The notes under the pieces were generated by a model. The model saw only the letters and a list, made by a program, of their open reading frames with translations, did no database searches and had not been told where the DNA came from. 64,000 nucleotides of DNA. Source: Agromyces larvae. Lineage in GTDB: Bacteria > Actinomycetota > Actinomycetes > Actinomycetales > Microbacteriaceae. The stretch is taken from the NCBI RefSeq assembly GCF_022811705.1, contig NZ_CP094528.1, positions 1,612,001 through 1,676,000 of the forward strand, written 5' to 3'. Of this stretch, positions 5,134 to 44,130 are shown piece by piece (the stretch's first letter is position 1; every line of letters begins with the position of its first letter). The position numbers were made by a program, and so were the translations under genes.

Positions 5134-5196
5134 CCTGCGGCGCGTGCGGGTCAGCCTGCGGCGCGTGCGGGTCAGCCTGCGGCGCGTGCGGGTCAG
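5134..5196. repeat. Three tandem 21-bp direct repeats
   Basis: Three exact copies of a 21-bp unit (CCTGCGGCGCGTGCGGGTCA plus G) at 5134-5154, 5155-5175 and 5176-5196, followed by a partial copy. The stop codon (TGA) of the minus-strand decarboxylase lies in the third copy. Because 21 is a multiple of three, an extra copy would not shift a frame. The block abuts the hairpin at 5083-5132. Confidence 0.9.
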
Positions 5197-6692
5197 CCTG
5201 CGGCCGGCTCCACCACCCGCGCCAGCAACTCGATCAGCAAGCGCTCGGTGAGTGGCGCCGGCAACGCCTCGACGAGCGCCAGCACCGGCGCCATCCGCTC
5301 GGGCAGCGCTCCCCCGCCGCCGAGCAACCCGAACGAGCCGAGCAGTGCGGCAGCCCCATCGGCGTCGAGCCCGCTCTCCAGCAGCCCCGAGAGGTCGAGC
5401 CCGCCGAGCCCGGCAAGCACGTCCCGCCCGTCGACGGGCGCGACCCCGCGCACCGCGTCCGCCGCGCCGATGAGCGCCTGCACGAGCTCGCCGAGCACCC
5501 CCTCGGTCACCGGCGTCACGGTGAGGTGCGTGGTGCGCGGCAGCACGGTGCCGTCGGCCTGCACGAGCGCGGGCTGCAACTGCAGGTGCCAGCCCGCCGC
5601 GCGCGCCGCGTCGGCCCAGTGGTGCGGGTCGACTCGGCGGTCGGCGCGCACCGAGGCATCCGTTCGCACCGCGATGAGCGGACCGACCGGGTCGCCGACG
5701 ACCTGCAATCCCTCGATGCTGTCGACCGCGGCCCGCAGCGCGGCCGTCGCGCGCAGCGCCCGCGCGGTGAGCGACGCGAACCCCTCGCGGCCGAGCGCCT
5801 CGATGATCGCCCACGCTGCCGCGAGCGGCCCGGCGGGCTTCGAGCCGGTGAGCGTCGGGTTCACGACCGGATACCCCGGCCACTCGGTCGTCGCGAAGTA
5901 CTGGAACCGTTGCCGGTCGCGCCCGCGCGTGAGCAGCACCGACACGCCCTTGGGCGCGTAGCCGTACTTGTGCAGGTCGGCCGACAGGCTGGTCACGCCC
6001 GGCACGGCGAAGTCCCACGCGGGCAGGTCGCCGCCGGGCATCGAGGCGTCGGCGAATCCGAGCGCGAAGCCCCCGATGCACGCATCCACGTGCACGGGCA
6101 CCCCTCGCGCGGCAGCGAGCGCGGCGACCTCGGCGATCGGGTCGAGCGTGGCGAACGGGTACGACGGCGCGCTCACCACGACGAGCGCGACGTCGGGCGC
6201 GAGCCGGTCGGCGATCGCCTCGGGCGCGGGTCGCCCGGTCGCCGGGTCGACGGGCACGGTGTCGTACGCGACATCCAGCAGGTGGCACGCCTTGCGGAAC
6301 GCGGCGTGGGCGGTGACCGGCGCGACGAGGCGCGCGCGGCCCTGCCCGCCGGCCGCGCGCCACGCGTCGCGCGCGGTCTTCACCGCGAGGATGCAGCTCT
6401 CGGTGCCGCCCGAGGTCACCGACCCGACCACCTCGTCGCCGCCGTGGAACACCTCGCGCGCGAACCCGACGACCCCGCGCTCCATCGCGGCGACCGACGT
6501 GAACGTGGTCGGGTCGAGCCCGTTGACCGGCTGCACGTGCCTCGCCGCGGCCGCCGCGAGCTCGTCGAGTTCGGCGAGCCCCGAGTCGTACACGTACGAG
6601 AGCACGCGCCCACCGTGGGTGGGCGCGTCCCGCCCGCGCAGCGCCTCGAGCTCGGCCAGGATCTCGGATGCCTCGCGGCGGAACCCGCTCAT
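5193..6692 (-). CDS. PLP-dependent decarboxylase/lyase (fold type I)
   Basis: 499 aa from the ATG at 6692. The pyridoxal phosphate lysine is K242 in SADLHKYGYAPKG. A phosphate-binding SVTSGGTES stretch and an active-site VHVDACIGGF segment fit the group II amino acid decarboxylase / sphingosine-phosphate-lyase-like family. The substrate (glutamate, an aromatic amino acid, or a phosphorylated amino alcohol) cannot be decided from sequence alone. The SADLHKYGY signature leans toward the sphingosine-1-phosphate lyase-like branch. It overlaps the transporter gene by four bases (ATGA), so substrate import and decarboxylation are probably coupled. Confidence 0.85.
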   Translation of the reverse strand: MSGFRREASEILAELEALRGRDAPTHGGRVLSYVYDSGLAELDELAAAAARHVQPVNGLDPTTFTSVAAMERGVVGFAREVFHGGDEVVGSVTSGGTESCILAVKTARDAWRAAGGQGRARLVAPVTAHAAFRKACHLLDVAYDTVPVDPATGRPAPEAIADRLAPDVALVVVSAPSYPFATLDPIAEVAALAAARGVPVHVDACIGGFALGFADASMPGGDLPAWDFAVPGVTSLSADLHKYGYAPKGVSVLLTRGRDRQRFQYFATTEWPGYPVVNPTLTGSKPAGPLAAAWAIIEALGREGFASLTARALRATAALRAAVDSIEGLQVVGDPVGPLIAVRTDASVRADRRVDPHHWADAARAAGWHLQLQPALVQADGTVLPRTTHLTVTPVTEGVLGELVQALIGAADAVRGVAPVDGRDVLAGLGGLDLSGLLESGLDADGAAALLGSFGLLGGGGALPERMAPVLALVEALPAPLTERLLIELLARVVEPAAG

Positions 6693-8200: not shown

Positions 8201-9751
8201 ATGCGCGCCACGACGGCCTCCCCCGCCCTGTTCGCGAGCCTCGCCGACGACGTCGTCGCCTCGGGCTCCGAGACCATCGCCGTGTCGGTGCCGGCCACCG
8301 GCGAACCGCACCACGACCTGCCCCGCTCGAGCGCCGACGACGTGCGCGACGCGGTGTCGCGCGCCCGCCTCGCGCAGCTGGCGTGGGCCAGGGCCGGCTT
8401 CGCGCACCGCCGCCGCGTGCTGCTGCGCGCCCACGACCTCATCCTCGACCGCGGTGACCTGCTGCTCGACCTCGCCCAGATCGAGAGCGGCAAGACCCGC
8501 GGGCAGGCGCTCGAAGAGCTCTACCAGGCCGCGTCCGTCACCCGGTTCAATGCCCTCGAGGCGCCGCGGGTGCTGAAAGGTCGTCACGTGCGGGCCGGAG
8601 TCCCGGTCGCGACGGCCACGCGCGTGCGGTACAGCCCCAAGGGCGTCGTCGGCGTCATCACCCCCTGGAACTACGCACTCAGCCTCGCCGCGATGGACGT
8701 CGTGCCCGCGCTGGCCGCCGGCTGCGGCGTCGTGCAGAAAGCCGACGACCACGGTGCGCTGACGATCCTCGCGCTGCGCCGCGCGTTCATCGACGCCGGC
8801 GTGCCCGAGGCGCTGTGGGCGGTCGTGACCGGCTCGCCCGACGAGGCCGGCGAGGCGCTCACCGACGAGGTCGACTACATCTGCTTCACCGGCTCGACCG
8901 CGACCGGGCGGAAGATCGCCGAGAAGGCCGGCCGCCGGCTGGTCGGCTGCTCGCTCGAGCTCGGCGGCAAGAACGCGATGCTCGTGCTCGACGACGTCGA
9001 CCCCGAGCAGGCGGCCGCGGATGCCGCGTATGCCTGCTTCTCGGCGATGGGCCAGCTCTGCGTGTCGATCGAACGCATCTACGTCGACCGGCGCGTCGCC
9101 GAGCCGTTCACCCGCGCGCTCGTCGACCGCCTCTCGTCGGCGAAGATCGGCACCGGGCTCGAGTTCGACGCCGACTACGGGTCGCTCGCGAGCGCCGCGC
9201 AGCTCGAGCGGGTCACCGGCCACCTCGACGACGCCGTGTCGAAGGGCGCGACCGTGCTCGTGGGCGGCAAGCCGCGCCCCGACGCCGGCGCCTGGTGCTT
9301 CGAGCCGACCGTGCTCACGGACGTGACCCCCGACATGCGCGCCTACGCCGAGGAGACCTTCGGTGCGGTCGCCTCGCTCTACGTCGTCGACGGCGACGCC
9401 GAGGCGATCGTCGCGGCGAACCACAGCGAGTACGGCCTGAACGCCTCGGTGCTCACCCGTTCGCCGCGTCGCGCGCAACGCATCGCCGACGCGCTGGCCG
9501 CCGGCAGCGTGAACATCAACGAGGGCTACCGCGGGTCGTTCGGCTCGGTCGCCGCGCCGATGGGCGGTGTGAAGGCATCGGGGCTCGGCCGCCGCAACGG
9601 CCGCGAGGGACTGCTCCGGTTCGTAGACCCCGTCACCGTGTCGCGCGCGACCGGCCTGCTGCAGCTGCCGCGCACCGGTGCGGAGTTCCGGGTGCTCTCA
9701 GGCCCGTTCCTGCTGCTCGCGCGCGTGCTGCGGGCACTGCGCATCAGCTGA
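8201..9751 (+). CDS. Aldehyde dehydrogenase, succinate-semialdehyde dehydrogenase type
   Basis: 516 aa, full length for the NAD(P)-dependent aldehyde dehydrogenase superfamily. The catalytic cysteine is C287 in AMGQLCVSIERIY and the general base is E253 in LELGGKN. The cofactor-loop sequence GVVGVITPWNYALSL is also present. The sequence resembles actinobacterial succinate-semialdehyde dehydrogenases (GabD2-like), which oxidise an omega-oxo acid to the dicarboxylic acid. It is divergent from the decarboxylase/transporter pair. A decarboxylation-then-oxidation route is plausible but an aminotransferase would be needed and none is present here. Confidence 0.85.
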   Translation: MRATTASPALFASLADDVVASGSETIAVSVPATGEPHHDLPRSSADDVRDAVSRARLAQLAWARAGFAHRRRVLLRAHDLILDRGDLLLDLAQIESGKTRGQALEELYQAASVTRFNALEAPRVLKGRHVRAGVPVATATRVRYSPKGVVGVITPWNYALSLAAMDVVPALAAGCGVVQKADDHGALTILALRRAFIDAGVPEALWAVVTGSPDEAGEALTDEVDYICFTGSTATGRKIAEKAGRRLVGCSLELGGKNAMLVLDDVDPEQAAADAAYACFSAMGQLCVSIERIYVDRRVAEPFTRALVDRLSSAKIGTGLEFDADYGSLASAAQLERVTGHLDDAVSKGATVLVGGKPRPDAGAWCFEPTVLTDVTPDMRAYAEETFGAVASLYVVDGDAEAIVAANHSEYGLNASVLTRSPRRAQRIADALAAGSVNINEGYRGSFGSVAAPMGGVKASGLGRRNGREGLLRFVDPVTVSRATGLLQLPRTGAEFRVLSGPFLLLARVLRALRIS

Positions 9752-9760
9752 GCTGCCGCC

Positions 9761-9857
9761 CCGCTCCCTGAGCCCGTCGAAGGGAGCCCGCCCCGCTCCC
9801 TGAGCCCGTCGAAGGAAGCCCACCCCGCTCCCTGAGCCCGTCGAAGGGAGCCCACCC
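9761..9857. repeat. Three palindromic 32-bp repeat units between convergent genes
   Basis: GCTCCCTGAGCCCGTCGAAG recurs at 9763, 9795 and 9827, a period of 32 bp. Each unit can fold, pairing GCTCCCT with AGGGAGC around a GAGCCCGTCGA loop; the middle copy has one mismatch. The block lies between the converging aldehyde dehydrogenase and tatB genes and could end transcription in both directions. The same core occurs in gcvP and gcvH. Confidence 0.9.
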
Positions 9858-9869
9858 CGGACGAAACCC

Positions 9870-35088: not shown

Positions 35089-38000
35089 CTACGCGAACGC
35101 CTCCACCGGCGGGCAGGCGCAGACGAGGTTGCGGTCGCCGAACGCCTGGTCGATGCGGCGCACGGGTGCCCAGTACTTGTTCCGCACCAGCGAGCGCACC
35201 GGGTAGACCGCCTGCTCGCGGGTGTAAGGGTGCGTCCACTCCCCCACCACGACCGACTCGGCGGTGTGCGGGGCGTTGTGCAGCGGGTTGTCGTCGGCCG
35301 GCCACTCGCCGCGGCCCACCGCGTCGGCCTCCGCCTTGATCGCGATCATCGCCTCGACGAACCGGTCGAGTTCGGCCAGGTCCTCCGACTCGGTCGGCTC
35401 GACCATGAGCGTGCCCGCCACCGGGAACGACATCGTCGGCGCGTGGAACCCGTAGTCGACGAGACGCTTGGCCACGTCGTCGACGGTCACCCCGGTCGCC
35501 GCGGTCAGCGGCCGCAGATCGAGGATGCACTCGTGCGCGACGAGCCCGTTCTCGCCCGTGTACAGCACCGGGTAGTGCGCGCGCAGCCGCGCCGCGACGT
35601 AGTTCGCCGCGAGCACCGCCGCGGCCGTGGCATCCCGCAGCCCGTCGGCGCCCATCATGCGCACGTACGCCCACGAGATCGGCAGGATCGACGGCGACCC
35701 GTAGGGCGCCGCCGAGACCGGCCCGCCGTCGTGGGTGACGCCGCCCGCATGGTCGGCGCGCTGCGCCAGCGGGTGGCCGGGCAGGTACGGCGCGAGATGC
35801 GCCTTCGCCGCGACCGGGCCGACGCCCGGCCCGCCGCCGCCGTGCGGGATGCAGAACGTCTTGTGCAGGTTCAGGTGCGAGACATCCCCGCCGAAGTCGC
35901 CGAACCGGGCGAAGCCGAGCAGCGCGTTGAGGTTCGCACCGTCGACGTACACCTGGCCGCCCGCATCGTGCACGGCCTGCGTGACCTCGGCCACATCGTG
36001 TTCGTACACGCCGTGCGTCGACGGGTAGGTGATCATGAGCGCGGCGAGCTTGTCGGCGTGCTCGGCGACCTTCGCCCGAAGGTCGGCGAGGTCGACGTTG
36101 CCGAGCTCGTCGGTCGCGACCACCACGACCCGCATGCCGGCCAGCACCGCCGACGCGGCGTTCGTGCCGTGCGCGCTCGACGGAATGAGGCACACGTCGC
36201 GCTCGGCCTCGCCGTTCGCGCGGTGGTAGCCGCGGATCGCGAGCAGGCCCGCGAGCTCGCCCTGCGAGCCCGCGTTCGGCTGCAGCGACACCGTGTCGTA
36301 CCCGGTGACCTCGGCGAGCCACGACTCGAGCTGCTCGATCATGCCGAGCGAGCCGACCACGTCGGCCTCGGGCGCGAACGGGTGCAGGTCGGCGAACGCG
36401 GGCCAGGTGACGGCCTGCATCTCGGTCGCCGCGTTCAGCTTCATGGTGCACGAGCCGAGCGGGATCATGCCTCGGTCGAGCGCGTAGTCGCGGTCGGCGA
36501 GGGTCTTCAGATACCGCATCATCTGCGTTTCGGAGTGGTGGCTGTTGAACACCGGGTGCTGCAGATACGACGAGGTGCGGCGGAGCCCCGCGGGCAGCGC
36601 GTTCGCGTCGAGGGCGACGGCAGCCCAGGCCCCTGAGCCGGTCGAAGGGTGCTCCTCGGGCCCGCCGAACGCGCGCACGACGGCGTGCAGGTCGTCGAGC
36701 GTCGTCGTCTCGTCGACCGAGACCTGCACGGTCGCGTCGTCGGCCGCCCACAGGTGCACGCCGAGGTCGCGCGCCCGCTCCACGACGTGCGACGCGAGGC
36801 CGGGCACCACCACGCGCAGCGTGTCGAAGTACGCGTCGTGCACGACGGACTGGCCGAGCTCGGTCAGCCAGCCGGCCAGCAGGGTCGCCTTCGCAGCGAC
36901 CTCGGTCGCGATGAACCGGATGCCTCGCGGCCCGTGGTACACCGCGTACATCGACGCCATCACGGCGAGCAGGACCTGCGCGGTGCAGATGTTCGACGTC
37001 GCCTTCTCACGGCGGATGTGCTGTTCGCGGGCCTGCAGGCTGAGCCGGTACGCGGGGGCGCCCGAGGCATCCACCGAGACCCCGACCAACCGGCCCGGAA
37101 GCTGACGCTCCAGCCCCTTGCGCACCGCCATGTACCCGGCGTGCGGCCCGCCGAAGCCCATCGGCACCCCGAACCGCTGCGAGGTCCCGACCGCGACGTC
37201 GGCACCGAGCTCGCCGGGCGACGTGATGAGCGCGAGCGCGAGCAGGTCGGCGGCGACGACGGCCAGCGCGCCCTGCGCCTTCGAGGCGGCGATGAGCGCG
37301 GACGGGTCCCACACGCGACCGGACGCCCCGGGGTACTGCACGAACACGCCGAAGTGCTCGCCGAGAACGCTCCCCGAGCCCGTCGACGGGAGCCCACCCG
37401 CTTCGACAAGCTCAGCGGGCTCGAGGACGCTCCCTGAGCCCGTCGAAGGGAGCCCACCCGCTTCGACAAGCTCAGCGGGCTCGACAAGCTCAGCGGGCTC
37501 GACAAGCTCAGCGGGCTCGACAGGCTCAGCGCGCCGTGCCGCGATCTCCGCGAGCGGCGCCTCGACGAGCTCGATGCCGACCGCCTCGGCGCGCGAGCGC
37601 AGCAGCGCGAGGGTCTGCGGCAGCGCGTCGGCGTCGACGATGAACCGGTTCGACGCCGACTTCGAGGCACGGCGGGCCAGCAGCATGCCTTCGACGACGG
37701 CGGTGCCCTCGTCGAGCATCGACGCGTTGGCGATGTCGAGGCCGGTGAGGTCTTCGACCATGGTCTGGAAGTTGATCAGCGCCTCGAGCCGGCCCTGCGA
37801 GATCTCGGGCTGGTACGGCGTGTACGCGGTGTACCAGCTGGGGTTCTCGAGCACGTTCCGCTGGATGACCGCGGGGGTCACGGTGCCGTAGTAGCCGAGC
37901 CCGATCATCGAGGTGCGCACGGTGTTCTGCGCGGCGAGGTCGCGCAGTTCGGCGAGCGCCTCGCGCTCGGTCGCGGCGGCGGGGATGGCGCTGGAGAGCA

Positions 38001-38151
38001 CTTCGCCCATGCGGATCGAGGTCGGCACGGCGGCGGCCATGAGCGCGTCGACCGTGTCGTGGCCGACGACCTCGAGCATGCGCGCGTGGTCGTCGGGGGT
38101 GGTGCCGAGGTGGCGGCGCCCGAAGGCGTCCTGCGCGAAGGTGGTGCCCAT
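35089..38151 (-). CDS. gcvP: Glycine dehydrogenase (decarboxylating), P-protein, with an extra insert
   Basis: 1020 aa; the usual length is about 950-965. Homodimeric-type P-protein with N- and C-terminal PLP-fold halves; the PLP lysine is in [18 protein letters not shown]. It decarboxylates glycine and passes the aminomethyl group to the lipoyl arm of GcvH. Residues about 207-262 consist of EPAELV repeats and two [12 protein letters not shown] units, encoded by the repeat block at 37366-37533. A further PSTGSG lies near residue 502, from the repeat at 36630. Both look like in-frame insertions in surface loops; reading frame is kept. Last gene of gcvT-gcvH-gcvP, with only three bases between its start and the gcvH stop. 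Confidence 0.95.
36630..36649. repeat. Palindromic-repeat core inside gcvP (single copy)
   Basis: CCCCTGAGCCGGTCGAAGGG, the same core as at 9763-9850, lies in the gcvP coding region and encodes PSTGSG on the minus strand. It sits in a loop segment [14 protein letters not shown]. Confidence 0.85.
37366..37533. repeat. Repeat block inside gcvP (two 60-bp units plus four 18-bp units)
   Basis: GCTCCC[CT]GAGCCCGTCGA occurs at 37369 and 37429, exactly 60 bp apart, each joined to a CTTCGACAAGCTCAGCGGGC arm that is nearly its reverse complement. Then TCGACAAGCTCAGCGGGC (18 bp) repeats four times from 37462 to 37533, the last copy diverged. All periods are multiples of three, so gcvP stays open. It encodes PSTGSG on one arm and EPAELV on the other. 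Confidence 0.92.
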
Positions 38152-38154
38152 CGA

Positions 38155-38544
38155 CTACTCGCCGACCAGGGCGCGGTACTCGTCGTGGCTGAGCAGCTGC
38201 GGCAGGGATGCGGCGGCGACCTTGATCAGCCAGCCCTCGCCGAACGGGTCGCTGTTGACCAGCTCGGGAGCGTCGACGACGGCCTGGTTCGACTCGACGA
38301 TCTCGCCGTCGACCGGCGAGAACAGTTCGCCGACCGACTTGGTCGACTCGATCTCGCCGACCACGGTGCCGGCGGTCACGGCGGTGCCGGCGGCGGGCAG
38401 GTCGACGTAGACGACGTCGCCGAGCTTCTCGGCGGCGTAGTCGGTGATGCCGATGGTCACCACGCCGGTCCCTGAGCCTGTCGAAGGGCCGACCAGCACC
38501 CATTCGTGCTCGGGGGTGTACCGCAGGCTGGTCACGTCGGTCAT
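38155..38544 (-). CDS. gcvH: Glycine cleavage system H protein
   Basis: 129 aa from the ATG at 38544. The lipoyl-bearing lysine is in [20 protein letters not shown]. GcvH shuttles the aminomethyl group from GcvP to GcvT. After EHEWVLV it reads [14 protein letters not shown], where family members usually have a short acidic turn; the extra residues come from the repeat core at 38470-38488. The insertion lies in a beta-hairpin away from the lipoyl site, so the protein is probably functional. Confidence 0.94.
38470..38488. repeat. Palindromic-repeat core inside gcvH
   Basis: CCCTGAGCCTGTCGAAGGG matches the core seen at 9763 and 36630, with T for C in the loop. It encodes PSTGSG in the N-terminal hairpin of GcvH. 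Confidence 0.85.
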
Positions 38545-39837: not shown

Positions 39838-40035
39838 ACTCCCCCTCTGTCATGGGCCTGAGAGTTTCACACCCGATCGTTCGGGGGCTTTCACCGTGGG
39901 CGGGGCGACGCGATGCGTCGCCCGCTTTTCAGAGCGGCCTCGTCGTCGCGGTGATACGACCTGAGAGATTGGCGGGGAGGCTTGCTCCTTCGGTGCCGGC
40001 TGGGCCGCTGGTGCTGGCTGCCGGCTCTCCCGCGA
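39838..40035 (-). promoter_or_regulatory. Glycine riboswitch, tandem aptamers
   Basis: Read on the minus strand: GGGAGAGCC opens the first aptamer, followed by GCACCGAAGGAGCAAGCC and CTCTCAGGTCGTATCACCG. The second carries ACGGTGAAAGCCCCCG, GTGAAACTCTCAGGCCC and closes with ATGACAGAGGGGGAG. These are the conserved strings of the glycine class. In bacteria this element usually switches gcvTHP on when glycine is high. The distance of 47 bases to gcvT leaves space for translational or transcriptional control, which I cannot tell apart. Confidence 0.9.
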
Positions 40036-40069
40036 CGCGTCGATGGCCCGGTATTCGGTTCTCGGGTCG

Positions 40070-43934: not shown

Positions 43935-43978
43935 TGACCGATACCCCAGCACCCGATCGACCGGAGCACCCAGCATGA
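43934..43978 (+). other. 14-codon mini-ORF between nadB and nadC
   Basis: ATG overlaps the nadB stop (TGATG). It encodes MTDTPAPDRPEHPA and ends in TGA overlapping the next ATG. Its sequence is the original leader of the nadC region. It may keep ribosomes coupled from nadB towards nadC. Confidence 0.4.
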
Positions 43979-44130
43979 CCGACACCCGCGACATCGACCG
44001 CATCGTCACCGCCGCGCTCGACGATGATGCGCCCTCGAGCACGACCGCCGATCGACCGGAGCACCCAGCATGACCGACACCCGCGACATCGACCGCATCG
44101 TCACCGCCGCGCTCGATGAGGATGCGCCCT
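43953..44130. repeat. Tandem duplication of the nadC start region
   Basis: About 83 bp at 43953-44035 recur at 44048-44130, offset 95 bp, with three or so mismatches (CTCGACGATGATGCGCCCTC against CTCGATGAGGATGCGCCCTG). Both copies contain the ATG and the first codons of nadC. The 95-bp offset is not a multiple of three, so the first copy cannot read into nadC. Confidence 0.92.
43975..44073 (+). other. 32-codon mini-ORF: fragment of duplicated nadC 5' end
   Basis: Reads MTDTRDIDRIVTAALDDDA, then a frameshifted tail STTADRPEHPA and TGA overlapping the real nadC ATG. Residues 1-19 equal the NadC N-terminus, apart from one E/D change. It is the broken first copy of the duplication described for 43953-44130. 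Confidence 0.5.

Follow-up and report, generated by a model that had tools for sequence, protein, structure and literature searches.

A REP-like hairpin family of Agromyces larvae has probably entered genes in frame and expanded by local duplication within gcvP

The gcvP gene of Agromyces larvae contains, in frame, an array of a short palindrome that is a REP-like mobile element and not a feature specific to the GcvP protein. We consider it likely that REP-like hairpins recently multiplied in this species, entered genes in frame and were locally duplicated at gcvP, where the resulting peptide is tolerated. The analysis covers a stretch of 64,000 nucleotides (the window, in whose coordinates the features are given), the A. 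larvae genome to which it belongs (G000; 4,005,264 bases in a single contig), further genomes of the genus and the phylum, and a viral contig collection. The features of the window that carry the argument are as follows.

35089..38151, minus strand: gcvP, glycine decarboxylase P-protein, 1020 aa
38155..38544, minus strand: gcvH, H-protein of the glycine cleavage system, 129 aa, named by operon position and sequence
37362..37531, no strand: palindrome array in frame in gcvP, delimited with Tandem Repeats Finder; empty in the congener G004 and in 80 of 80 named loci
37375+, 37403-, 37435+, 37463-, 37481-, 37499-, 37517-: cores in the gcvP array
36630..36649, plus strand: second, single palindrome copy in gcvP, in frame, reading PSTGSG near residue 508; core with one mismatch
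38470..38488, plus strand: single palindrome copy in gcvH, in frame, reading PSTGSG
9759..9859, plus strand: intergenic array of a 32-bp unit, 3.2 copies, with an exact 32-mer in common with the gcvP block

Tandem Repeats Finder resolved the gcvP array into a 60-bp period of 2.2 copies (37362-37491) and an 18-bp period of 3.8 copies (37463-37531), across which the gcvP frame stays open; an EPAELV-type peptide is among those encoded. The two 60-bp and four 18-bp in-frame units of the preliminary description are thereby confirmed, and the ends it gave for the block (37366..37533) prove to be 2-4 bases off. On the plus strand the 60-bp unit consists of two opposed hairpins, both formed around the core TGAGCYYGTCGA, with outer stems of CTCCC/GGGAG in one versus CCCGC/GCGGG in the other. 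Because the 60- and 18-bp units are 95-98% alike, the array looks like the product of later local tandem duplication of these units. The core had also been said to recur in an intergenic array at 9763-9850, here delimited as 9759-9859, and the longest exact match between the two arrays, which lie 28 kb apart, is indeed 32 nt. Two in-frame copies can be added to those listed before, one in gcvP (36630-36649) and one in gcvH (38470-38488). With up to one mismatch allowed, the window contains 20 occurrences of the 12-nt core, against a mean of 2.58 and a maximum of 5 in 100 shuffled versions. The window also holds a glycine riboswitch aptamer (RF00504, 59.2 bits) at 39939-40042 on the minus strand upstream of gcvT, where a glycine-cleavage operon would be expected to have one; a 95-bp tandem duplication at 43953-44130 (1.9 copies, 97% matches), which includes a start-codon-like stretch; and a perfect 21-bp tandem repeat at 5134-5204 (3.4 copies), whose period is again a multiple of three.

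The best named matches of the A. larvae GcvP are from Agromyces, and in protein alignments the block is absent from 80 of 80 named GcvP loci as well as from G004, so that it is not an ancestral loop. Compared with six relatives that have no palindrome in this loop, the A. larvae protein is longer by 49 residues from residue 212 in all six cases and shows a second excess near residues 506-508, amounting to 4 residues against five of the relatives and 6 against the remaining one. The block had been credited with the entire excess length of GcvP; this holds for the 49 residues, and the further 4 or 6 derive from the second palindrome copy at 36630-36649, so that the block accounts for most, not all, of the excess. 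The second copy is absent from G004, where it aligns as a 15-nt gap, and from the other congeners shown. The gcvH copy corresponds to an exact 18-nt gap in G004, and the gap is also present in the other congeners whose locus covers the site. Both parts of the history proposed earlier, the entry of a palindrome and its subsequent frame-keeping expansion, are thus seen in the comparison with relatives.

The length of this GcvP loop varies more widely, and in at least three loci from other genera (L040, L046 and L049) it is lengthened by unrelated repeats. Such variation, together with the tandem nature of the 18-bp array itself, is what one would look for if local slippage in an ancestral low-complexity loop had produced the block and no mobile element were involved. 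We accord that origin hardly any probability, since the exact 32-mer recurs in the intergenic array 28 kb off, the core is present at hundreds of loci and the hairpin is found in thirteen sampled genes. Slippage is therefore refuted as a full account, and it holds for copy number within the gcvP block. In a structure model, GcvP residues 210-260 have pLDDT below 50 and lie between a helix (200-207) and a strand (268-273). Most likely this additional peptide is baggage that a surface loop tolerates, not a new function.

By GcvP, the nearest congener is G004, which we infer to be Agromyces intestinalis; the GcvP loop of G004 is identical to that of this species (P0001). The genomes of A. larvae and G004 are largely collinear across 156 kb, with 81-96% DNA identity per long piece and one second match at 73%. 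In this comparison seven of nine core clusters, including the gcvP block and gcvH, have no counterpart in G004. A single core at 1589815 is common to both genomes as ordinary coding sequence, and for another at 1611207 there is no matching DNA in G004. Both metH sites are empty in G004. At the birA site G004 carries a different extension, so that this counts as a variable loop rather than as cleanly empty. The flanks of A. larvae and G004 are too diverged for exact target sites and duplications to be read. The G004 gap that matches window positions 9759-9859 holds a different palindrome, GGTCGAGTAGCG...CGTATCGAGACC; on small counts, GGTCGAGTAGCG has 3 copies in 180 kb of G004 versus 2 in 1.012 Mb of A. 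larvae.

Across the A. larvae genome the 12-nt core occurs 440 times (189 + 251) versus 15 times (5 + 10) for the reversed pattern, and it is thus not confined to gcvP. The 17-mer CCTGAGCYYGTCGAAGG is present in 196 copies in A. larvae, 90 in G003, 74 in G025, 27 in G036, 18 in G031, 17 in G021 and a single copy in G004, and it is absent from 32 of the 60 genomes of the genus. These bursts are lineage-specific. The A. larvae burst is separate from that of G003 and G025, because the GcvP proteins of the pairs A. larvae/A. intestinalis (94.0% alike) and G003/G025 (96.8%) are only about 85-86% alike across pairs. Along the A. larvae chromosome the copies seem unevenly spread; from 450001 to 1270000 (contig C1), nine even 20-kb samples hold no hairpin copies, bar one with five, and single copies are listed between them.

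The repeat unit is about 23 nt long, with the consensus GCTC(C/G)C-TGAGCYYGTCGA-AG(G/C)GA. With one copy taken from each of 42 clusters, positions -6 to +16 around the core carry high information content, which drops to near background beyond them, except for weak signals at +24 and +26. It is the hairpin that is conserved, because both positions of the second outer stem pair change together between C-G and G-C: among 157 A. larvae copies (a set that excludes TCG loops and stretch ends), 80 have C-G and 61 have G-C. The two positions are matched in a fraction of 0.90 versus 0.47 in shuffles, giving z 10.8, or z 5.3 with one copy for each of the 42 clusters. The same swap is found in G003 (z 6.0, 41 distinct copies) and G025 (z 3.0, 11 distinct copies). 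After 24 of 165 exact cores with fewer than three of four stem pairs were dropped, 141 hairpin-positive copies in 38 clusters were retained, whose left tetramer (-6 to -3) reads GCTC in 93, GCCC in 30, GTTC in 7, GTGC in 4, GCGC in 3, GGTC in 2, and GGTT and GGCC in one each. In G003 and G025 the left end is TGGTTC (8 and 7 clusters, respectively). The inner mismatches are a tandem G-A on one strand (5'-TGAG / 5'-CGAA). Tandem G-A pairs in the context 5'-PyGAPu are stable in DNA, and the GCGAAGC mini-hairpin is unusually stable. The folding program, in which the tandem G-A goes uncredited, predicted the outer stem alone, with nearly equal energies on both strands; the stems fold with modest energy, at z -1.8 to -2.2 for 23-25-mers and about 0 for bare 19-mers.

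Copies inside genes were counted in a non-random 1.012-Mb sample of A. larvae, made up of 39 of 40 even 20-kb stretches, stretches picked for known copies and the window, with a gene caller trained on GC3-biased frames that recovers gcvP, gcvH and gcvT. By this caller 89% of the sample is coding, and of the 38 clusters (141 copies) 15 lie in genes (39 copies), 20 are intergenic (83 copies) and 3 are partial (19 copies); genes are therefore avoided yet not spared. With all 165 exact cores (47 clusters) the corresponding numbers are 23, 21 and 3, and the 39 even stretches alone hold 75 hairpin copies in 22 clusters, of which 9 are in genes, 10 intergenic and 3 partial. The 13 genes with copies include gcvP, gcvH, topA, PEP carboxykinase, birA, metH (two sites), rimI, an FAH/RraA protein (two sites), an MMPL transporter, ABC transporter parts and an aminotransferase. 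Within genes, neighbours of the same orientation are spaced by multiples of three in 13 of 13 cases, versus 13 of 30 between genes (P 4e-4). The 39 in-gene copies use four frames; the TGA-reading frame holds no copy, and the same is true of a single one of the other five. In 400 kb each of G003 and G025, exact-core clusters are intergenic in 6 of 8 and 7 of 7 cases, and the sole G003 in-gene cluster is a single core; heavy in-gene invasion is therefore seen in A. larvae only.

In one of these relatives the repeat has reached the same place in GcvP. G025 carries the palindrome, with a single mismatch that falls in the hairpin loop, at the GcvP loop that is also filled in A. larvae; it reads PFDRLR there, versus PSTGSG, and hence lies in a different frame. 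Since the frame differs and the palindrome is absent from this loop in the close relative G003, the G025 loop represents an independent hit. A search for the 17-mer with up to one mismatch at 29 GcvP loci of the genus (L114-L142) found only L139, which is from G025. Peptides of a similar kind are present in the GcvP loop of P0023, P0039 and P0050, as read from the protein sequences and not from palindrome DNA. At the level of protein sequence only, P0023 additionally has LRRAQGA near the second GcvP site, and a more distant GcvP, P0044, has a similar peptide.

Repeated hits on one GcvP loop in more than one lineage, and the presence of copies in both gcvP and gcvH of one operon, could be taken to mean that the inserts are adaptive, with the peptide or the hairpin regulating GcvP or GcvH. 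We regard this as improbable: unrelated genes (topA, PEP carboxykinase, metH, birA, transporters) carry copies too, in different frames, and the sites, where seen, are loops or protein ends.

Beyond the genus, the YTG form of the 17-mer was found in 8 of 246 genomes of the phylum, A. larvae and G004 included. In the viral contig collection the 17-mer CCTGAGCYTGTCGAAGG is present in at least 120 stretches versus 6 for the reversed pattern, and many of the contigs that bear it may be cellular DNA. The outer pair covaries in these contigs as well (0.77 versus 0.45, z 8.4, 133 distinct copies). A variant of the stem with a GNA loop, CCTGAGCGNAGCGAAGG, is likewise present in at least 120 stretches of the collection, a count made without a reversed control, and covaries at two pairs (z 13.3 and 7.2, 119 copies). 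The stem counts took in 118 of 120 and 119 of 120 stretches, the rest having less than 20 nt of flank. The left flank of the CCTGAGCGNAGCGAAGG variant is TGTCAT in at least 28 of 119 copies; this flank resembles CGTC-type REPs, and through the variant the two families may be connected. Among 50,697 phage records none matches the gcvP block. The intergenic array (window 9750-9865) has weak matches of 79-80% in the Microbacterium plasmids NZ_CP012699.1 (31579-31666) and NZ_CP072877.1 (316330-316385).

Three protein families were searched as potential movers: Y1_Tnp (PF01797), RVT_1 (PF00078) and a TnpB-type domain (PF07282). Y1_Tnp has no match at E <= 0.01 in 60 of 60 genomes of the genus, those with bursts included, and the best match in A. 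larvae, with E 0.97, falls short of the cut-off. RVT_1 was rejected as the mover, being present in 3 of 60 genomes (G006, G033 and G047) and not in A. larvae, G003 or G025. The TnpB-type domain was also rejected; it has matches at E <= 0.001 in 3 of 60 genomes, none passing the cut-off, and one of these genomes is G036, which has 27 copies of the 17-mer. As no mover was found among these families, the word mobile rests here on the distribution of the repeats and not on an event that was seen.

It is conceivable, if doubtful, that the repeats spread as classical REPs through a Y1 transposase of RAYT or IS200 type, one that was active at the time of the bursts and later lost, or that acted from a plasmid outside the assemblies. 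The size, arrays, opposed pairs and position near gene ends are all REP-like, and an excerpt of PMC6006769 proposes the loss of TnpA-REP in genomes that keep REPs. A Y1 gene is also present in 4 of 6 core-bearing genomes outside the genus versus 81 of 246 in the phylum overall, a weak co-occurrence. Against a lost Y1 enzyme stand the negative search in the 60 genomes of the genus, the absence of the GTAG tag, and the several separate bursts, which would need several losses. Moreover, the exact core is found in 0 of 30 phylum Y1 loci, with a few one-mismatch matches in 5 of the 30. Nine larger Y1 stretches (five from G286, one from G243, two from G169 and one from G132) contain no core, exact or with one mismatch; they are part of 19 stretches from the six core-bearing genomes outside the genus and cover some, not all, Y1 genes.

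Alternatively, the hairpin might be copied through template switching by host replication or repair enzymes, without a dedicated mover, which we think possible but rather unlikely. This would agree with A. larvae, G003 and G025 having neither a Y1 nor a reverse transcriptase gene, with no TnpB passing the cut-off, and with the frequency of tandem and opposed arrays (28 of 38 clusters are multi-copy and 21 are of mixed orientation). However, the near fixation of the core in unrelated contigs (at least 120 versus 6 reversed) points to sequence-specific recognition, and template switching alone leaves dispersal to far loci and the species-limited bursts unexplained. Nor was any replication-strand bias seen, with 44 plus and 42 minus copies in the first half and 26 and 29 in the second (P 0.73), where the halves are not relative to a located origin or terminus. 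We favour a sequence-specific mover enzyme, given a core that hardly varies and the conservation of one end; host-enzyme copying and a lost or outside Y1 enzyme are its main rivals and are, together, about as likely.

On this view, non-autonomous hairpin units of about 23 nt multiplied recently in the A. larvae lineage, and their copies would enter new sites in the form of folded single-stranded DNA on which a putative resident sequence-specific enzyme acts. Insertions into genes would not be aimed, and those that keep the frame in floppy loops or at protein ends would survive selection. At gcvP an opposed hairpin pair would have entered first, and local duplication by replication slippage or unequal recombination would then have brought the 60-bp unit to about two copies and the 18-bp unit to about four.

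REPs in the broad sense are palindromes of 20-40 bp that occur in high copy number and mostly between genes; the Agromyces unit is about 23 nt long, with 440 cores and 20 of 38 clusters intergenic. In the portions of PMC3733652 on REPs, the GTAG-tagged ones (RAYT/TnpA-REP) are described as short imperfect palindromes in high copy, single, paired or arrayed and mostly intergenic near gene ends, with in-gene copies, sometimes in frame, in many species. Recognition by TnpA-REP requires both hairpin and tag, according to an excerpt of PMC8266576. The Agromyces unit is similarly a short palindrome of high copy number, single, paired or arrayed, lying mostly between genes and sometimes in frame. It differs in having a GTAG end in 0 of 141 A. 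larvae copies, with no outward conservation in this genome, and no Y1 gene in 60 genomes of the genus. For the CGTC repeats, which include Rickettsia RPE-4 and RPE-6, the same portions (PMC3733652, Di Nocera 2013) give no known dedicated transposase, hairpins often in opposed pairs and some copies in genes; how transposase-less REP-like repeats spread is left open there. The Agromyces family shares with them the opposed pairs, some in-gene copies and the lack of a Y1 transposase in our searches, and the TGTCAT left flank of the CCTGAGCGNAGCGAAGG variant recalls a TGTC tag followed by the AT start of a stem. However, a CGTC, TGTC or CCTC end is found in 0 of 141 A. larvae copies, which end in GCTC, GCCC or GTTC instead, and the loop and stem of the Agromyces unit differ from the CGTC description given in the text of that source, as distinct from its consensus figure.

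Two further classes invite comparison. The Rickettsia palindromic elements (RPE), reportedly described by Ogata in 2000 and 2002, resemble the Agromyces palindromes, which lie in frame in 13 genes (15 of 38 clusters) with the gcvP, gcvH and metH sites empty in G004. RPE are inserted in frame in many unrelated protein genes, and they differ in being about 150 bp long with a conserved encoded peptide, versus about 23 nt in four frames in Agromyces (excerpts of PMC10969869 and PMC3733652). With MITEs the Agromyces unit shares being non-autonomous, palindromic and near genes, whereas MITEs are 70-300 bp with terminal repeats (excerpt of PMC3733652), a further mark of theirs being target duplications, and no longer element was seen around the Agromyces unit, whose conservation ends at -6/+16. 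The Agromyces family thus resembles REPs in its behaviour and RPE in its position within genes, and it has neither the GTAG or CGTC tag nor a Y1 gene. In open-licence text, figures excluded, the core had no match at 14 letters, and the 12-letter matches were unrelated by title. Hairpin repeats inside genes are already known; the Agromyces family looks undescribed.

We tentatively entertain a bolder proposal, in which a hairpin family with a TGAG...CGAA stem, found in many unrelated contigs, bursting at the level of species and carried by a mover that is not of the Y1, RT or TnpB type, repeatedly writes loops into the same site of core enzymes. If true, this would be a third REP superfamily beside GTAG and CGTC. 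In two near pairs, A. larvae/G004 and G025/G003, one GcvP loop is occupied in one species but not in its partner, and the Agromyces bursts look recent enough for catching insertions in the act. They point to a simple route to enzyme loops, in which a mobile hairpin lands in frame and expands; judging by decayed-looking relatives, the loop may later fade into ordinary sequence.
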